NCBI GenBank assembly: GCA_951813085.1
Contig: OX638348.1
Coordinates: 434,001 to 498,000, forward strand
Direction: 5' to 3'
Source of the DNA: an uncultured Opitutaceae bacterium
GTDB taxonomy: Bacteria; Verrucomicrobiota; Verrucomicrobiia; Opitutales; Opitutaceae
DNA length: 64,000 nucleotides
The notes below the pieces were generated by a model that was not told where the DNA came from, ran no database searches, and saw only the letters and a program-made list of their open reading frames with translations. The position numbers and the translations under genes are program-made. Position 1 is the first letter of the stretch; each line of letters starts with the position of its first letter. Shown here one piece after another: positions 45,844-54,562 of the stretch.

Positions 45844-47064
45844 CTAGCTTTTGGATACATCGAGGCAGACTACTGTGCCTAAGTTATTTCTTATATAAAG
45901 CCGGCCATCAGCGTAGGCTGGCGGTGCCCAGCTCGTACCAAGGAGGGCGTGTTTCCGTCCGAGCTCCTGGAATCGATCGCCTTGATCCGTGCCCAGAATT
46001 ACGTGACCTGAGTCTGTGAATACAATGAGGTTTCCGCCGACTGCAATGACGTTGCCGAGATCACCGGGCATCTCTTGCTTCCATCGCACTTCGCCTGAGT
46101 CGAAATCTAGAGCTACCATATCCCTCGGATCGCCGTCGCCGCCAAAGTGGGCGATCACATTGTCGCCAGCCAAGATACTTGTCTGGACTTTCAATATCCA
46201 CTCGCGATCGCGATGCAGCAACTTAGGTTCTCCTTGAGTGACATCAATCACCGCGTAACCGGAACCGTAGCCGGAACCGATGAAAATCTTTCCGTTCCGA
46301 TAGTGCGGATTGGAGGCATTGGCTCCGTAGCTGGTCCTCCAGGAATACCGATAAACCGGATCGCCCGGATTCGCTAGGTCGTAGCCTACGAGCGCTTTCT
46401 TGTGAAATACGGCGGCATAGTCCTTCCCGTTCGCATTGTATATAACGGGTGTGGCGTATCCCGGCTCTTCATCGCCGGCTGCCCAAACGAATGCGCCGGT
46501 CATTTTGTTGAGGGCGCCGAGGGCGCCTTTTTTCGCCCCCGGGTCAATGAGAAGCAAATCTCCGTATACCACGGGAGACGCGGCCCAGCCCCAAGACTGC
46601 TTCCGTCCATCGAAGTCCTTTTCCCAATGGATCTCGCCCGATTCCAAATCGAAGCAAATCAGTTTCCCTGACTTGCTCACGGTGTAAACGCGGTCCTCAT
46701 CGATCGTAGGTGTCGAAGAGGTGCCTCCAGAATAATATTTTGCCTGCGTGGGTTCGTCATAGCTGCTTTTCCATATGACTGCTCCGCTCGCGGCATCGAA
46801 GCACCATACCGTGTCGACATCGTTCCGATTTCCCAGCGTGAGGGCTTTCCCGTCGGTGATGGCAAAGGACGAGCAGCCGAGACCGACGTTCCCCGTCCAA
46901 AGGGAATTTGGCGGGTCGCTTTTCCAGTCCGTATTCAATCGAGTGTCTTGGGATATCGATCCGTTTCCATTGGGTCCTAAAAAGCGAGGCCAGTCTTCGG
47001 ATTGGGCGATACCAGCGGTGAATAGAAGCGCTGCAGAAGCGGCGTAGGTTAAGGATAATTTCAT
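45844..47064 (-). CDS. Exported PQQ-type beta-propeller protein
   Basis: A 406-residue protein with signal peptide at residues 1-22 (GIAQS). DWPRFLGPNGNG directly after the cleavage site is the standard opening of Planctomycetes/Verrucomicrobiota PQQ-like proteins, followed by propeller blades with motifs FDAASGAVIWKS, FDLESGEIHWEK and LDFDSGEVRWKQ. It is similar in layout to 53171-54562. The two converge on the plus-strand run and TonB gene; it begins a minus-strand set of propeller genes (45844, 47125, 48661). Confidence 0.88.
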   Translation of the reverse strand: MKLSLTYAASAALLFTAGIAQSEDWPRFLGPNGNGSISQDTRLNTDWKSDPPNSLWTGNVGLGCSSFAITDGKALTLGNRNDVDTVWCFDAASGAVIWKSSYDEPTQAKYYSGGTSSTPTIDEDRVYTVSKSGKLICFDLESGEIHWEKDFDGRKQSWGWAASPVVYGDLLLIDPGAKKGALGALNKMTGAFVWAAGDEEPGYATPVIYNANGKDYAAVFHKKALVGYDLANPGDPVYRYSWRTSYGANASNPHYRNGKIFIGSGYGSGYAVIDVTQGEPKLLHRDREWILKVQTSILAGDNVIAHFGGDGDPRDMVALDFDSGEVRWKQEMPGDLGNVIAVGGNLIVFTDSGHVILGTDQGDRFQELGRKHALLGTSWAPPAYADGRLYIRNNLGTVVCLDVSKS

Positions 47065-47124: not shown

Positions 47125-48582
47125 TTATAGGCTGTCGACAGCTTGCAGGCTTTCGTAGGTCCGCAGATAGGCGATGGTATCAGAAAAAATTGGAGTGCTC
47201 CGGTAGGGGCCTACGTTGTGACGAGCGATTTGCTGGTAATTCCGCCCAGGCTTGAAAATAACGATATTTCCATCATCGATTCCCAAATAGATCTTATCGC
47301 CCGCCAATACCATGCTTGGGTAGGCCGTCCCTTTCGCTCCTTTGACTTCATGCGTATATATTGTCTTTCCCGTATTCGTATCCAAGGCAGTGATATGGCT
47401 CTCTCGAGACACGATATACATAATGCCATCATGAACGAGAGGCGAAGCGTAGTAGCGATCCTTGTCGACTTGCGTATGCCAGACTAGAGATAGGCCTTGT
47501 TCCAGCAACGTATCCAAACTCTTAGGGACTCGGTAGGCGTAAGCATCGCCATTTTGGTTTTCAACGCCACTGACTGCGTAAAGCGTGTCGTCTACCAAGG
47601 TAGGCGTATTGAATATCGACCAGCCACGAGTGGGGTGGACGTAGACAAGTCCTTCGTGGAGCATTTTCCCGTCGTTGACTCGAATCACTTCGCCTCGGGG
47701 CGTGAACAAGAATGCCTCGTCTTCTACGCGGAATGGGGTAGGCGTGCCGAATACTATTTCGGAAGGGGTTTTCCAAAGAACGTCGCCATCGCTTGGGTCC
47801 AACGCTATGTAGTTGGAAAAGCGTACAATGAGCTTTCCGTCCACGATCTGAGGCATTGTTGCACCTCCCCAGCGATGATCAGGATGCTCGAGGAACTTTG
47901 ACCAGATGCGATTGCCCTCGAGATCGTAGGCGACCACGACCCCGAGTCCAAATACCGCGTAAATGTGGGTTCCATCGAAGTAGGGCGTATAGGAGCTGTA
48001 ACCATTGGTGTTGTGGGCAGGTGGCGTGACGAACTTCTCAAATTCCGGATGGGAGCGGAGCGCCTCTGTCTCGGTTTCGTTCGCGCTCAAGGCCTCTCTT
48101 TTTACCCGTAGGCTCTCTTGAGTCGTCTTATTGTCAGGCTGGTTGTTGAGGGTACGCTCGAGTCGTCGGATATCGTTGCGCAGGCGCTGGTATTCGCGCC
48201 CGACCTCCGCGATGCGAGCATTGTGCGCTTTCAGAGCATCTCGTTTCTCGTCGCTGATATTGTTGAGTTCCAGCAGATCGTTGGAGCGCTTCCAAAGGAT
48301 GTCGCCCGATTTGCTGTCTGCGCAGATTAGATAGGCTGGTTCTGCGGTGAAAATGATCCGATCGTTTACCAGTATGGGAGACCCGTTGCTCTTGGATTCC
48401 AAGGGAATCTCGAAGCGCATCTTCTCCTCCCAATCGACGGGCGAATGAGTGGCGTCATAGATGCCGTTGTGATGCGTCCGCCATGAAGGGACGTTTGCGA
48501 AAAGGGATTGGCTAACGGTGATTGCGGTAGCGATAAGTAGCGCGGTGGCGCATCGATTTAGGGCAGGTTGAAGCAATCTCAT
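47125..48582 (-). CDS. Exported PQQ-type beta-propeller protein with inserted coiled coil
   Basis: A 485-residue protein from the ATG at 48582; a GTG ten codons earlier is less likely because it would precede a longer, less typical signal. Signal peptide residues 1-29. Beta-propeller blades include ADSKSGDILWKR and LDTNTGKTIYTH. Between the first and later blades, residues about 90-165 form a highly charged helix with heptad character (RNDIRRLERTLN and ESLRVKREALSANE), probably a coiled coil standing off the propeller. This insertion is rare in my experience of the family and may mediate oligomers or partner binding. Function unknown. Confidence 0.85.
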   Translation of the reverse strand: MRLLQPALNRCATALLIATAITVSQSLFANVPSWRTHHNGIYDATHSPVDWEEKMRFEIPLESKSNGSPILVNDRIIFTAEPAYLICADSKSGDILWKRSNDLLELNNISDEKRDALKAHNARIAEVGREYQRLRNDIRRLERTLNNQPDNKTTQESLRVKREALSANETETEALRSHPEFEKFVTPPAHNTNGYSSYTPYFDGTHIYAVFGLGVVVAYDLEGNRIWSKFLEHPDHRWGGATMPQIVDGKLIVRFSNYIALDPSDGDVLWKTPSEIVFGTPTPFRVEDEAFLFTPRGEVIRVNDGKMLHEGLVYVHPTRGWSIFNTPTLVDDTLYAVSGVENQNGDAYAYRVPKSLDTLLEQGLSLVWHTQVDKDRYYASPLVHDGIMYIVSRESHITALDTNTGKTIYTHEVKGAKGTAYPSMVLAGDKIYLGIDDGNIVIFKPGRNYQQIARHNVGPYRSTPIFSDTIAYLRTYESLQAVDSL

Positions 48583-48660
48583 ATTCCAAGTAGTTATGTG
48601 TTTTAGGTTCACGAGTCACTGTTAAATGGTCTATCGACTGTAAAATTCGGGCAACTCGCC

Positions 48661-50826
48661 TCACGGTAGGGCGAAGCAATAGTAGCTGTCTCCGGGGCGG
48701 GTTTGCAGTTTGCTGCCTCCTCCTCCTGCGATAACGATGTATTGCCGCCCATTGATTTCGAAGGTGGCTGGGGTGGCGTAGCCGGCGGCGTCCAGTTGAT
48801 ATTGCCAAAGCAGTTCCCCGGTGGTCTTGTCAAAAGCGCGAAAGCGCTCGTCCTTAGTGGCGCCGATGAAGACAAGTCCTCCACCAGTGATCATCGGTCC
48901 GCCGATGTTGAACGTGCCGGTGTCGCTGTATCCTTGAGATTCCAGTTCGGGATAGGTGCCGAGCGGGATGGACCAAGCGAATTCGCCAGTATTCATATCG
49001 ATAGCGTGCAGCTGGCCCCAGGGCCGCTTGTTTATGGGATAGCCAAAGGGATCATGAAGATCCTTGTGCCCAGCATGAACATAGGGTGTGTCGTTCCTCC
49101 ACGTAAGCGCGATCTCCGACGTCCGAATCGTTTCGTCATCGCGGTCCCGATAGAGGAAGGCGAGTATACTCTCCTTTTCCTTCTCATGAAAGGTTGCGAA
49201 AGAAGGCATCGATCCTTTGCCCTCGTCGATAATTCGATAGGCGTCCTCTCTGCTAAGGTGATCTTTCACGGAACGAAGGGCGGGAAGTTCCATGCCGGGT
49301 ACTTTTCCTGTATCATCCAATCCATGACAATTGGAGCAAACGCCTTGGTATATGTCTTCTCCTAGTTTCCAAAGAGGCCGTTCTCCCGGGTCCTCTGCCT
49401 TTTTCATAGCAGTCCATTCCGCCTCATTGCTGACGTTGACGTAAAGCAAGCCTGTTTCGGGATCGAATCCAGGACCGGGCCATTCGGACCCTCCATTGAA
49501 TTGCGGGATGACGACCATTTTTTCAAATCCGGCTGGCTTGTAGAGCTCGCCCCAATCATATTGCCGTAGAATTTCCAATGCGCCTTGGCGGAATTCGGGC
49601 GATAGATTTGTAACGTCGTCCAAGGTAAATTGCGTCAGGCCGTAGGGAGCGGGTTTTATCGGAAATGGTTGGGTGGGGGAGGTCTCTTCTCCTGGAATGA
49701 TAGATTGTGGAACAGGACGTTCCTCGATGCCGAAAATGGGTTCACCCGTATCGCGATCTAGGACGAAAAGGAGCGCCATCTTGCTTATTTGAGCAACCGC
49801 ATCGATTCGCTTACCATCTTTTTCCAAGGTAATTAGGACTGGTGGAGCGGGAAGGTCGTAGTCCCAAATGTCGTGATGCGTTGTCTGGAAATGCCAAATA
49901 CGTTCCCCGGTTGCGGCATCGAGAGCGAGTACGCAATTGGCGAAGAGATTGTCGCCAACACGATCACCACCGAAGCCATCGTAGCTAGGTGCTCCCGTGC
50001 CCATGAATACGATACCACGCTCCGTATCGAGAGTGAGGCCTGCCCAGGCATTGGCGCCACCATTGCGCTTGTAGGATTGGGGAGACCAAGTTTCGTAGCC
50101 AAACTCTCCCGGATGTGGGATTGTATGGAAAATCCACGTGCGTTCGCCCGTTCGAACGTCGAAGCCCCGGATGTGACCTGGGGCAGCTTGCGATGGGCCT
50201 TCTCCTACGGCTCCTGCCAAGATCAAGGTATCCTGGTAGACGACTCCGGGCGCGCGAGGCGAATAGTAGCGCAGGATGCCGTCTGTATCCAACTCTTCCC
50301 GCATATCGATCCGTCCTCCGACACCGAAAGTGTCGATGGGCGCGCCGGTGTTCGCATCAAGCGCGTAGTAGTAGTTGCTTGCTCCGGCGAAGATTCGTTT
50401 ATCGTCGCCATCTTCCCAGTACAAAAGGCCCCTCGAATAGCCGAGATAGTCGTTTCCGTTGTGCGGGTCGAAGCGCCAGAGCTCCTTGCCGCTGAGGGCA
50501 TTGACGGCGACGACTTTTTGACCGGGAGTCGTAAGGTAGAGGATCCCGTCAATCACGATCGGATTGCACTGAATCGTGGACTTGAGGGTGTCTTTCCGGT
50601 CGTCGACGCGATAGCGCCAGACGAGCTCGAGCTGGTCGATATTGGATCGGTTGATTTGGTCGAGCGCTGAGTATTTCGTCCCTTTCAGGTCTCCGTTGTA
50701 TACGCGCCAGTCCGTGTGGCTGTTGCGCGGATCGGCCGCATGAACCGGGCTTATGCATTGCAGCAGAGTCGAAACGGCAATCAGTCGCGATAGACGCTGG
50801 AATTGAGAATATCGAGGGAGGGGCAT
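48661..50826 (-). CDS. Quinohemoprotein: PQQ-dependent dehydrogenase with cytochrome c insert
   Basis: A 721-residue exported protein with signal peptide at residues 1-30. Propeller motifs LELVWRYRVDD and HHDIWDYDLPAPPVLI match membrane/soluble PQQ glucose dehydrogenase-like enzymes. A cytochrome c domain is inserted at about residues 480-560, with heme motif CSNCH and a probable axial Met in GSMPSFATF. The last blades (GELLWQYQL and GRQYIVIAGGGGSK) follow it. Oxidises an alcohol, aldose or polyol and passes electrons to the c heme. No pqqABCDE genes are in the window, so PQQ must come from elsewhere in the genome or outside. Divergent from the TonB receptor at 51024. Confidence 0.9.
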   Translation of the reverse strand: MPLPRYSQFQRLSRLIAVSTLLQCISPVHAADPRNSHTDWRVYNGDLKGTKYSALDQINRSNIDQLELVWRYRVDDRKDTLKSTIQCNPIVIDGILYLTTPGQKVVAVNALSGKELWRFDPHNGNDYLGYSRGLLYWEDGDDKRIFAGASNYYYALDANTGAPIDTFGVGGRIDMREELDTDGILRYYSPRAPGVVYQDTLILAGAVGEGPSQAAPGHIRGFDVRTGERTWIFHTIPHPGEFGYETWSPQSYKRNGGANAWAGLTLDTERGIVFMGTGAPSYDGFGGDRVGDNLFANCVLALDAATGERIWHFQTTHHDIWDYDLPAPPVLITLEKDGKRIDAVAQISKMALLFVLDRDTGEPIFGIEERPVPQSIIPGEETSPTQPFPIKPAPYGLTQFTLDDVTNLSPEFRQGALEILRQYDWGELYKPAGFEKMVVIPQFNGGSEWPGPGFDPETGLLYVNVSNEAEWTAMKKAEDPGERPLWKLGEDIYQGVCSNCHGLDDTGKVPGMELPALRSVKDHLSREDAYRIIDEGKGSMPSFATFHEKEKESILAFLYRDRDDETIRTSEIALTWRNDTPYVHAGHKDLHDPFGYPINKRPWGQLHAIDMNTGEFAWSIPLGTYPELESQGYSDTGTFNIGGPMITGGGLVFIGATKDERFRAFDKTTGELLWQYQLDAAGYATPATFEINGRQYIVIAGGGGSKLQTRPGDSYYCFALP

Positions 50827-51023
50827 TCCAAATGGGAAGCTACCTTCGTCTGAACGGAGCTCTGGCTCAAGGCGAAATGCTGAGTTTCAGAGGCGCATCG
50901 GGGTGTGGGCCGCTATCCAATCATTAGGGATCCTAATTAAAAAGAAACCGGAACCTGTCCATTTTCGTTGTTGCTCGAGAAAATTTCGTTCTTTTAGGAC
51001 GCGAACTATAAACACCCTCATCC

Positions 51024-53072
51024 ATGATAAAGCAAATCAGCTCTCTTTCCGCCGCCGCTATCGCATTGAGCGGGATAAATGTAATCGAGGCGCAGGAATC
51101 CAATATCTACGAGCTTTCTCCTATTAGAGTGATTGCCGGCGACACTCTTCTTGACCAAGGAGGTCCTATGAGCGGATTTACCACAGGAGCGGTGGACTTG
51201 TACCAGATGCAATCGGTCCAAGAAACCTCAGCTCTGGTCCCTAACCTATTCGTTGCGTCGAGCGAAACGCGTGGCTATGGGGATACGATCGTTCTCCGGG
51301 GAATGGGCAATACGCTTTTCTTCAGTCCCGCAGGCGTATCCCAGTATATCGACGACGTCCCATCAGGGGATGTGTTCACTTACTCGTCGGAATTGCTTTC
51401 TGGAAATGCGCTGACCATCCATCGTGGAAGCATGGGATCTTTTTTTGGAAGGAATGGTCCTGCAGGCGTAATTGAAATCCAGAGCGCCAAGCCGGGAGAG
51501 CAGCAGCGCATCGAGATTTCTGCCGAAGTGGGATCGTTCGACAAGCGGGCATTTAGAGCAAATGTTTCCGGACCGATTTCCGACTCAGGCGTTTCACATA
51601 GCCTTACGGTTTTCCACAACGAGCGCGATGGCTATCTCTTCAATACGTCGCTGGGCCGCGCAACCGATTCGCGCGAGGCCCAAGGGGCCCAGTACAGCCT
51701 ATTCTTTTCGCCAGGGAACCAGTGGAATGCGCGTTTGAAGCTGGTCACCGAGAGCATCGATGACGGGAGTCAACGTCTCTCATCTCTTTTCAGCCCGGAT
51801 CCGTTCATGGTTGGGTCCAACTTGGAGGGCGAGACTCAGATTGATCGAAATCAGATCTCCTTTCATGCGGATCGAGAATTCGGTTGGGGTGTATTCAAGT
51901 CGATTACTGCTTTGCAGGACTGGGACTTGAATCCTTCCACGGTCGACTTGGACCTGAGCCCGGATCCGATTTCCACATCGCTGATCATGCAAGACCAGCG
52001 CTTGCTCACCCAGGAATTTCGGTTCGAGTCGAATGACGACGGCTCCCCGTTTGCTTGGCGGGCTGGCCTGTTCTACCAGGAGAAGGAGACGAGTGGAGAC
52101 ACAACGCGCGTTTTTCCCGCTCCGCCTTTCTTCCCGGTATTCACCGAAGACACGGTGTTCGCTATCGACGAAAAAGAGATTGCGGCATACGGGCATTTGT
52201 CATTCGAAGCGACTGACGCGCTCATTTTAGATGTTGGCGCTCGTATTCAAGAGACGGATTCAACGATCGATCGTGAAAAGACCTCTCCTGTTGGAGTGGC
52301 CCCGATCGATGCTTCGGTCTCGGACTCCTATTTTTCAGCGGATGGCGGCTTCGAGGCGATTCTAAGTGAACACGTATCCTTCGTTGGTCGCATCGCCATG
52401 GGCTTCAAGCCAAGCGGCTTCAGCGCGTTTACCGATCTTCCCAATCTTGCGGGATTTCGCGATGAAACCTCGCTCTCTAACGAAATTGGATTTTCGTTCA
52501 GCGCGGCTGACGATACATTCAAGGCACGAGTTACGGCTTTCGATATTTCCATCGACGATTACCAGCTGGAACGTTCGGTGCCTAATGCGACGGACTATAT
52601 CGTCATAAATGCGGACGAGGTTTCATCCACGGGAATCGAGACCGAAATCGTTTGGCAGCCTGTGCCGAGCTTCGTGCTGGAAGGCAGCTTTGGAACAAAT
52701 GACGTGACATTCGACAGTCACACGGATCCATTCTCATCCGCGAGTCTGGCGGGCCGTGAAGTACCCTTCACACCGGAATATACGATGCGTGGCTCGGCTC
52801 GATACAGCTTCGACAATGGCATCTTCCTGCAGGGAACTTTTCGCGGAATTGGCGAGACCTTCTTCGATGAGCCCAATACGGCGACATTCCGGCAGGGAAG
52901 CCATGAAGTGTATGATGCTCAGATTGGTTTCCGAGCCGAACACTACACGATTGTGGTGTATGGCGAGAACCTAGGAGACGAGCAGTACTACACCTTCATC
53001 AATCCCCAGATATTCGCGGCGACCCCGGGCGACCCTGAGTCATTCGGAGTACGGCTCGATCTAAGGTTCTAG
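51024..53072 (+). CDS. TonB-dependent outer-membrane receptor
   Basis: A 682-residue receptor with signal peptide at residues 1-23. An N-terminal TonB box-like segment ELSPIRVIAG is followed by the plug (about 50-165; VLRGMGNTLFF and RNGPAGVIEIQSAKPG are plug motifs), then a 22-strand-type beta-barrel ending in VRLDLRF with the terminal Phe used for outer-membrane assembly. No SusD-type partner is next to it. It is divergent from the PQQ dehydrogenase gene with 197 bases between, so uptake of PQQ or of the dehydrogenase's substrate is an attractive, untested idea. Confidence 0.9.
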   Translation: MIKQISSLSAAAIALSGINVIEAQESNIYELSPIRVIAGDTLLDQGGPMSGFTTGAVDLYQMQSVQETSALVPNLFVASSETRGYGDTIVLRGMGNTLFFSPAGVSQYIDDVPSGDVFTYSSELLSGNALTIHRGSMGSFFGRNGPAGVIEIQSAKPGEQQRIEISAEVGSFDKRAFRANVSGPISDSGVSHSLTVFHNERDGYLFNTSLGRATDSREAQGAQYSLFFSPGNQWNARLKLVTESIDDGSQRLSSLFSPDPFMVGSNLEGETQIDRNQISFHADREFGWGVFKSITALQDWDLNPSTVDLDLSPDPISTSLIMQDQRLLTQEFRFESNDDGSPFAWRAGLFYQEKETSGDTTRVFPAPPFFPVFTEDTVFAIDEKEIAAYGHLSFEATDALILDVGARIQETDSTIDREKTSPVGVAPIDASVSDSYFSADGGFEAILSEHVSFVGRIAMGFKPSGFSAFTDLPNLAGFRDETSLSNEIGFSFSAADDTFKARVTAFDISIDDYQLERSVPNATDYIVINADEVSSTGIETEIVWQPVPSFVLEGSFGTNDVTFDSHTDPFSSASLAGREVPFTPEYTMRGSARYSFDNGIFLQGTFRGIGETFFDEPNTATFRQGSHEVYDAQIGFRAEHYTIVVYGENLGDEQYYTFINPQIFAATPGDPESFGVRLDLRF

Positions 53073-53170: not shown

Positions 53171-54562
53171 TTACGACTTGCTCAGGCAGTATAGGTGATT
53201 GCCCGTGCGGATGAACAGCTGGTCGCCCGCGGCAGCGGGGGACGAGAGCGTATAGCTGTCGTCGAGGCTGTTATTTCCAAGGAGCTTGAAGTTCGACCCC
53301 GCTTGAACCACGGCGACTTCTGCAGTCTCGCTGACGAGGTAGAGCTTCCCGTCGGCCAGGATAGGAGACGAGCTGACGCGTCCGATGCCGGTTTCTTCAG
53401 GACCCCATAGGTTCTTGCCGGACTGGGCCTCGAAGCATGAGATTTGGCCGAAGTCATTCAACACGTAGAAGTAGGTGCCGTCGGAGATGGGAGTGGGGAC
53501 GTCGGGTCCTGCTCGGTCCTCCATCTTCCAAGCGAGGTGAGTGTCAGTTACGTCGCCTTTGCCATCTGCCTTGATCGCTAGCAAGGGCGTCTTTCGAGAA
53601 GGTGCGTAGACGATACCGTTCGCAGCGACTGGAGAGGCGATGATTCGATAGTTGCGGGAATTTTCAGGATTCAGGCCGCCTGAGCGCCAGATTTCGCTGC
53701 CGGTGTCCGGATCGTGGCTAGTTACGTAAGCGCCGCCGGAAACGACGATCTGCGTATTCCCGTTTACCTCCACTGGAATTGGAGTGGTGTAGGCATCTTT
53801 CGATTCCCATGGCGCATCGGAATGCCGATCCACTTTCCAGATCTCTTCCCCCGTTTCGCCGTCCAAAGCTACCACGTATCCGGGATCATCTGTATTCTGC
53901 CCGCGAACGACGCCGATTATTAAATTTCCTTTGTACAAGAGCGGCGATGACGCGAATCCCCAGTTGAGGCCGAACGCTCCATAGGAATCTTTGAGACTCA
54001 CTTTCCAGAGCGCCTTGCCATCGACTGTGTAAGCGCGGACGATTCCATTGCCGGTGGTTGCCCAAACATGCTTTCCATCGCTTACCGGCGATGGGGAGCT
54101 GTTGTTTTGCTTTCGCTTGAGTTCATTCCCGGAATCTACTTGAGACCTCCAGAGTTCTGAGCCGTCTTTGCGAGAGAGGCATATCATGAGCAGCTCTTCG
54201 CCTCCTGGACCATTCACCCCGGACAATTGAGGGCCACGTCTTCCGCCTCCTCGATTTCCTGGGCCGCGATTTCCGGGACCGCGACTGGGGGCGGGCTCTG
54301 CCGCGACGGTTTCCGCTTTCGCTGGCTGCTTCGATGGTGACATGACGAATACGCGATCGCCTACTACGATTGGCGTGGAACCGCTCCACGCCGGAAGGGA
54401 AATTTTCCAAGCGACGTTGCTTTCATCGCTCCAATTAACGGGCAGGTTTTTGGCGTCGGAGATCCCGGTTCCGTCGGGGCCTCTCCATTGAGGCCAATCG
54501 CTGGCTATGAGAGGGGCGGATAGCAGCAGAGCTGCTGACAGTAGTTTCATTGGGGTGCGCAT
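53171..54562 (-). CDS. Exported PQQ-type beta-propeller protein with Gly/Arg/Pro insert
   Basis: A 463-residue protein with signal peptide at residues 1-20. SDWPQWRGPDGTG opens the mature protein, as in 45844-47064. Residues about 85-112 are a Gly/Arg/Pro-rich insertion between the first blades, and the remainder has propeller motifs such as LDGETGEEIWKV and FEAQSGKNLWGP. Start is the ATG at 54562 or the ATG four codons later. Function unknown; it is followed on the same strand, 31 bases away in the other direction, by the TIM-barrel gene, with which it may share a transcript. Confidence 0.85.
   Translation of the reverse strand: MRTPMKLLSAALLLSAPLIASDWPQWRGPDGTGISDAKNLPVNWSDESNVAWKISLPAWSGSTPIVVGDRVFVMSPSKQPAKAETVAAEPAPSRGPGNRGPGNRGGGRRGPQLSGVNGPGGEELLMICLSRKDGSELWRSQVDSGNELKRKQNNSSPSPVSDGKHVWATTGNGIVRAYTVDGKALWKVSLKDSYGAFGLNWGFASSPLLYKGNLIIGVVRGQNTDDPGYVVALDGETGEEIWKVDRHSDAPWESKDAYTTPIPVEVNGNTQIVVSGGAYVTSHDPDTGSEIWRSGGLNPENSRNYRIIASPVAANGIVYAPSRKTPLLAIKADGKGDVTDTHLAWKMEDRAGPDVPTPISDGTYFYVLNDFGQISCFEAQSGKNLWGPEETGIGRVSSSPILADGKLYLVSETAEVAVVQAGSNFKLLGNNSLDDSYTLSSPAAAGDQLFIRTGNHLYCLSKS

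Follow-up and report, generated by a model that had tools for sequence, protein, structure and literature searches.

A TonB-dependent receptor and exported PQQ-repeat propeller proteins form a conserved gene module in Verrucomicrobiota, with a quinohaemoprotein dehydrogenase as an added partner

A TonB-dependent receptor gene and a quinohaemoprotein dehydrogenase gene divergent from it were analysed in an uncultured Opitutaceae bacterium (assembly GCA_951813085.1, contig OX638348.1). The window, meaning the whole stretch of 64,000 nucleotides studied, covers positions 434001-498000 of this single-contig genome of 4.85 Mb. An earlier reading of the DNA without database searches (the sequence-only reading) had described this divergent pair and its shared gap of 197 bases, and both open reading frames are genuine genes at the coordinates given in Table 1. 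Three genes for propeller proteins with pyrroloquinoline quinone (PQQ) repeats, PQQ2a, PQQ2b and PQQ2c, lie on either side of the pair, and apparent signal peptides were read by eye, not with a predictor, at the start of the products of all these genes. The data show a conserved module of receptor and propeller genes, in which the dehydrogenase is an added partner.

The receptor belongs to a core family of 11 members with at least 36% identity, found in 100 genomes of the bacterial family, and nine further receptors form a sister clade (28 to 31% in the alignment used for the PqqU comparison below). A PQQ-repeat or dehydrogenase gene directly adjoins the receptor in all 11 core members, and such a gene lies within 1 kb at none of the nine sister loci. 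The 11-sequence alignment was then used to scan a public genome collection, which gave 50 loci (some from the same genomes); those with a name all belong to Verrucomicrobiota, mostly Opitutales. Two cultured species, Luteolibacter marinus and Haloferula rosea, have the module. Of the 50 loci, 46 have a PQQ-repeat propeller or quinohaemoprotein gene no more than 1 kb away from the receptor, and in three of the four misses (L168, L189, L191) the contig ends within or just past the receptor gene. Among the 12 other receptor loci of the window genome only one has such a gene within 1 kb (at 809 bases), and for any one receptor the chance of such a neighbour in this genome does not exceed about 5.6%. 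No paper describing a receptor-propeller module of this kind was found among open-licence papers.

Three layouts recur among these loci. In the clade of the window, PQQ2b and PQQ2a point away from the receptor and PQQ2c points towards it; PQQ2c is retained beside the receptor in G078 and G048. At most other loci two propellers, of about 760 and then about 540 amino acids, come after the receptor, and these loci often continue with genes for an AMP-binding-like protein, an aldehyde dehydrogenase, an iron-containing alcohol dehydrogenase and a further propeller, as at L186 (8674-20015) and similar loci; a sodium:solute symporter is also among the continuing genes. The third layout, seen at six loci, has a quinohaemoprotein dehydrogenase 3' of the receptor in place of the propellers. 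At two loci (L104 7503-16040 and L105 8792-17774) one side of the receptor has a divergent run of six tandem PQQ2b-like propeller genes and the other a BlaI/M56-peptidase pair.

On the receptor tree, the presence of the dehydrogenase requires two changes, the first a gain shared by the window and G078 (supports 97/91) and the second in L171-L175 and L181. The dehydrogenase has thus joined the neighbourhood of this receptor at least twice. In G048, a genome of the same genus with a receptor 78% identical to that of the window, it is not at the locus. Of 26 dehydrogenase loci, three are beside the receptor family of the window and four are beside unrelated receptors (L094, L136, L138, L140).

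Table 1. Coordinates of the features at the locus, in positions of the window
Feature	Size	Position	Strand	Description
Quinohaemoprotein dehydrogenase	721 aa	48661..50826	-	Gcd-like PQQ propeller, signal peptide, cytochrome c domain as an insert
TonB-dependent receptor	682 aa	51024..53072	+	Verrucomicrobial family tied to PQQ-repeat propeller genes
Divergent intergenic region	197 bases	50827..51023		Read from the sequence
Conserved element TGTCCATTTTCGTTG		50956..50970	+	54-68 bases 5' of the receptor start; upstream alignment of 10 loci
PQQ2b, PQQ-repeat propeller protein		47125..48612	-	PF13360, 75.4 bits
PQQ2a, PQQ-repeat propeller protein		45844..47064	-	PF13360, 98.7 bits; next after PQQ2b, same direction
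PQQ2c, PQQ-repeat propeller protein		53171..54562	-	PF13360, 100.1 bits; convergent with the receptor
338-aa protein	338 aa	54594..55610	-	Next after PQQ2c; no Pfam or NCBIfam match

The dehydrogenase and PQQ2b are separated by 48 bases on the minus strand, and PQQ2b and PQQ2a by 60 bases; because these gaps are so short and the strand is the same, the three genes are probably co-transcribed as a single operon. The 338-amino-acid protein (cluster C9) is also found beside PQQ2c in seven of the 50 related receptor loci. Across the whole genome there are 49 matches to the PQQ_2 domain.

The shared gap had been taken as a hint of joint regulation. An alignment of ten upstream regions instead identified the element TGTCCATTTTCGTTG 5' of the receptor, present with at most one mismatch in five of the ten (the window, G078, L148, L149 and L151) and with two mismatches in L152; counted by eye, there are three mismatches in L147, L150 and L157 and six in G048. 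Its 14-base core has four exact sites in five whole genomes, three of which are at the receptor locus (G000, the window genome; G078; and G012, where the site is at the start of a BlaI-type repressor gene adjoining the receptor). The fourth is inside a coding frame of 731 amino acids in the window genome, DsbD-type as judged by eye, and as this single other site is intragenic no wider regulon was found. The element is probably an operator or promoter element of the receptor. Since it is present in relatives without the dehydrogenase, it speaks for control of the receptor and not of the pair, and none of the four other dehydrogenase copies in the genome has a receptor alongside; joint regulation is therefore weakly founded, and the gap was set aside as a sign of it. 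Scans for promoters and terminators in the gap gave no hit, nor did a search of the region against Rfam.

The dehydrogenase matches PF01011 with 634 bits and has a cytochrome c domain (PF13442, 43.3 bits) inserted after residue 480. The haem c motif CxxCH, at residue 497, is on the same chain as the propeller, which identifies the protein as a quinohaemoprotein. Its propeller resembles that of E. coli Gcd (31% identity over aligned columns), and the alignment shows that R201, W404, D466, D468, K493 and N607 of Gcd are kept, whereas H262 and H775 are not. The kept residues include the catalytic Asp466 and Lys493, Trp404 and the metal-side Asn607, and the protein is probably an active PQQ enzyme. 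Unlike Gcd, it has a signal peptide, is without the N-terminal membrane domain (the model of the membrane-bound form, TIGR03074, scores 431 bits against a cut-off of 832.65) and carries its cytochrome c inside the propeller. It shares a PQQ propeller and one cytochrome c on a single chain with the type II quinohaemoprotein alcohol dehydrogenases (1kv9, 1kb0, 1yiq), but in those the cytochrome is C-terminal, and here it comes after the bulk of the propeller and before its last blades. The four further copies in the genome have 39 to 48% identity to that of the window; one (L011 6082-8235; G000:C1:668108-670183) is broken by two in-frame TAG codons and is probably a decayed gene.

No PQQ synthesis genes are in the window, as the sequence-only reading had stated, and searches of the genome for PqqB, PqqC and PqqE gave no full-length pqq gene. 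PqqC (TIGR02111) had no match in the genome, nor in any of the 100 genomes of the family, in searches run without a positive control; when 387 genomes of the phylum were searched, the same model exceeded its cut-off in six, which come from a single other family, and so it does work in this phylum. The best matches to PqqB (41.1 bits, cut-off 245) and PqqE (63.7 bits, cut-off 381) are outside the window, and with scores so far under the cut-offs they were set aside. A full-length dehydrogenase is carried by 33 of the 100 genomes, so that a PQQ-type dehydrogenase without PQQ synthesis is the usual state in the family. Because the genome has several such dehydrogenases and no detectable PQQ synthesis, the premise that the organism relies on PQQ from outside is sound as judged from its gene content: it apparently cannot make PQQ, and should depend on an external supply if the enzyme is used.

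E. coli likewise has PQQ enzymes yet does not synthesise PQQ. According to PMC12124388, the cofactor is bound there by R304, R365 and R536 of PqqU, and the signature of this receptor is an aromatic residue (Y/F/W) at 99 together with R304 and R365. The sequence-only reading had suggested kinship with PqqU (YncD). PqqU from the K-12 record, whose 11 named residues were confirmed at their published numbers, was aligned with 20 receptors of the window family and sister clade, three PqqU-like receptors of the phylum and receptor G054C37. Phe occupies position 99 in all 20, and Arg is missing from 304, 365 and 536 in every one of them. In the window receptor these sites are Phe100, Leu309 (304), Gly358 (365) and D (536), although at 18% identity to PqqU the aligned positions may be off by several residues. 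The PqqU model NF041535 gave 20.8 bits against a cut-off of 1200, and with the three PQQ-binding arginines missing as well, orthology to PqqU was rejected. Three genomes of the 387 matched this model at an E-value of 1e-30, none of them over the cut-off; two of the three aligned PqqU-like receptors retain F, R, R, R (417 and 370 bits, still under 1200), and a third, weaker hit (G254) has Y, L, I, G. What the two systems share is a TonB-dependent receptor, the aromatic residue at the position of Y99 and divergence from a PQQ-like propeller gene, which in K-12 (L121 5964-9369) is yncE.

The domain matches of the window receptor are PF00593 (114 bits) and the Plug domain PF07715 (28.8 bits). Its best NCBIfam model is that of siderophore receptors, TIGR01783, with 107.3 bits against a cut-off of 223.5. 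The sequence-only reading had named pqqA-E genes together with a siderophore-type receptor as the case that would speak against it, and with no pqq genes found and a score this far under the cut-off, the genome does not present that case. The structure model of the receptor is of middling quality (mean predicted local distance difference test, pLDDT, 60.5; plug unreliable), and a fold search returned many receptors at similar scores, with FyuA and FptA the nearest solved relatives and PqqU third among solved structures; for both reasons the model does not decide the ligand.

We tentatively favour, at somewhat less than an even chance, a module for uptake and periplasmic oxidation in which the receptor imports an oxidisable substrate. 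The receptor would be the fixed member of a Verrucomicrobiota module of one TonB-dependent receptor and at least one exported PQQ-repeat propeller, and its most likely cargo across the outer membrane would be an organic compound in short supply (an alcohol, an aldehyde or a sugar derivative); the periplasmic propeller proteins would bind or oxidise it. In the window genome the Gcd-like dehydrogenase with its own cytochrome c would have been added as an oxidising partner, passing electrons to the respiratory chain. We infer here that the cargo is the substrate of the enzyme, that the propellers act on it, and the path of the electrons. Two observations lead us to prefer this reading: alcohol and aldehyde enzymes are encoded in related operons, and some dehydrogenases are neighbours of unrelated receptors, as would be expected under substrate-specific uptake; the enzymes continuing these operons handle alcohols, aldehydes or acids. 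The regular presence of a propeller or dehydrogenase gene near the receptor, the two recruitments of the dehydrogenase and its retained active-site residues also count in favour. Import of a substrate, the second suggestion of the sequence-only reading, fits the wider gene context somewhat better.

Several observations weigh against it. The commonest partners of the receptor are BamB-like propellers, which have no haem motif and are not known to be catalytic. The AlphaFold model of PQQ2b (mean pLDDT 83.7) is BamB-like with a helical hairpin insert, its top Foldseek hits are BamB, and no PQQ dehydrogenase is among its 50 listed hits. The clade of the window has no linked cytoplasmic catabolic genes, and at the fourth miss among the 50 loci, L169, there is no propeller gene in the 3.8 kb of downstream sequence visible. 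Among known systems, the TonB-dependent carbohydrate utilisation (CUT) loci of Verrucomicrobia (PMC5615132) likewise combine a receptor and exported enzymes at one locus. They carry sugar-polymer hydrolases; the recurrent genes scanned here included no such hydrolase. In the subset of neighbours scanned with Pfam, the only carbohydrate-active enzyme was one sulfatase, beside the G012 dehydrogenase.

The same data would also fit import of PQQ itself, through a binding site unlike that of PqqU, to supply the dehydrogenase and its paralogues, and perhaps the PQQ-repeat proteins too, which we regard as possible but rather unlikely. The lack of PqqC in a family where a third of the genomes carry the enzyme is consistent with it, as are the two recruitments of the dehydrogenase to one receptor family, the yncE-like gene arrangement and the rank of PqqU in the fold search. 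A dehydrogenase is present in ten of the 11 genomes with the receptor family and in 23 of the 89 without it (Fisher p 4.5e-5 by genome; by genus 4/5 against 13/44, p 0.043), values that make the case look stronger than it is, as related genomes are not independent. Further points in favour are the Phe at the Y99 position and Arg362, which all 11 close family members share and which lies four residues past the position of R365 in that 18%-identity alignment. Canonical PqqU was not found elsewhere in the genome, five of the 12 other receptor loci being covered by the phylum-wide scan only. Against PQQ import stand the missing arginines in all 20 aligned members and the very low PqqU score, the 23 of 33 dehydrogenase-bearing genomes that do without the receptor family, the four receptor-free dehydrogenase copies of the window genome, and G031 (87% complete), which has the receptor and PQQ-repeat genes with no full-length dehydrogenase match.

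Import of a metal chelate appears unlikely, whether the metal is iron bound to a siderophore or a lanthanide or calcium destined for the metal site of the enzyme. The nearest solved relatives, FyuA and FptA, and the best NCBIfam model point in this direction, but the siderophore score is under its cut-off and the recurrent neighbours showed no gene for siderophore synthesis. At the positions of residues 466 and 468 the enzyme has Asp, as does E. coli Gcd itself, and so the two aspartates do not single out lanthanide enzymes. A further point in favour is that PMC10875860 reports a TonB transporter and YncE in xoxF3 gene clusters, the transporter also in those of Verrucomicrobia, so that a PQQ dehydrogenase there has both a receptor and a propeller protein in its vicinity; that dehydrogenase is of the methanol dehydrogenase type, unlike the one in the window, and the likeness noted here is one of gene content. 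It is very doubtful that the propellers are structural or binding proteins devoted to the receptor, in the manner of BamB or SusD, and that the dehydrogenase came to lie in the promoter gap without a part in the system. In favour of this view, PQQ2b resembles BamB, receptor and propellers without the enzyme are the common state, and the enzyme sits between them in the window and is missing in close relatives. Against it, the same receptor family has recruited the enzyme on two separate occasions, and no lipobox was noted by eye on the window proteins, so that anchoring of the SusD or BamB type is not evident.

Substrates of such receptors are hard to guess from sequence, and gene order here names the proteins with which this receptor should be tested: in genomes of Opitutales and of Verrucomicrobiales type alike, the receptor family goes together with a single protein fold. 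As dehydrogenases occur in the family without PQQ synthesis and mostly without PqqU, the route by which PQQ is supplied becomes a direct question. We consider it improbable, though worth stating, that the receptor represents a second kind of receptor for PQQ uptake in Verrucomicrobiota, unlike PqqU at its binding site and working with exported propellers that bind or use PQQ. If true, this would explain how organisms that do not produce PQQ and have several quinoproteins are supplied with it, and would give a large uncharacterised family of propeller proteins a role.

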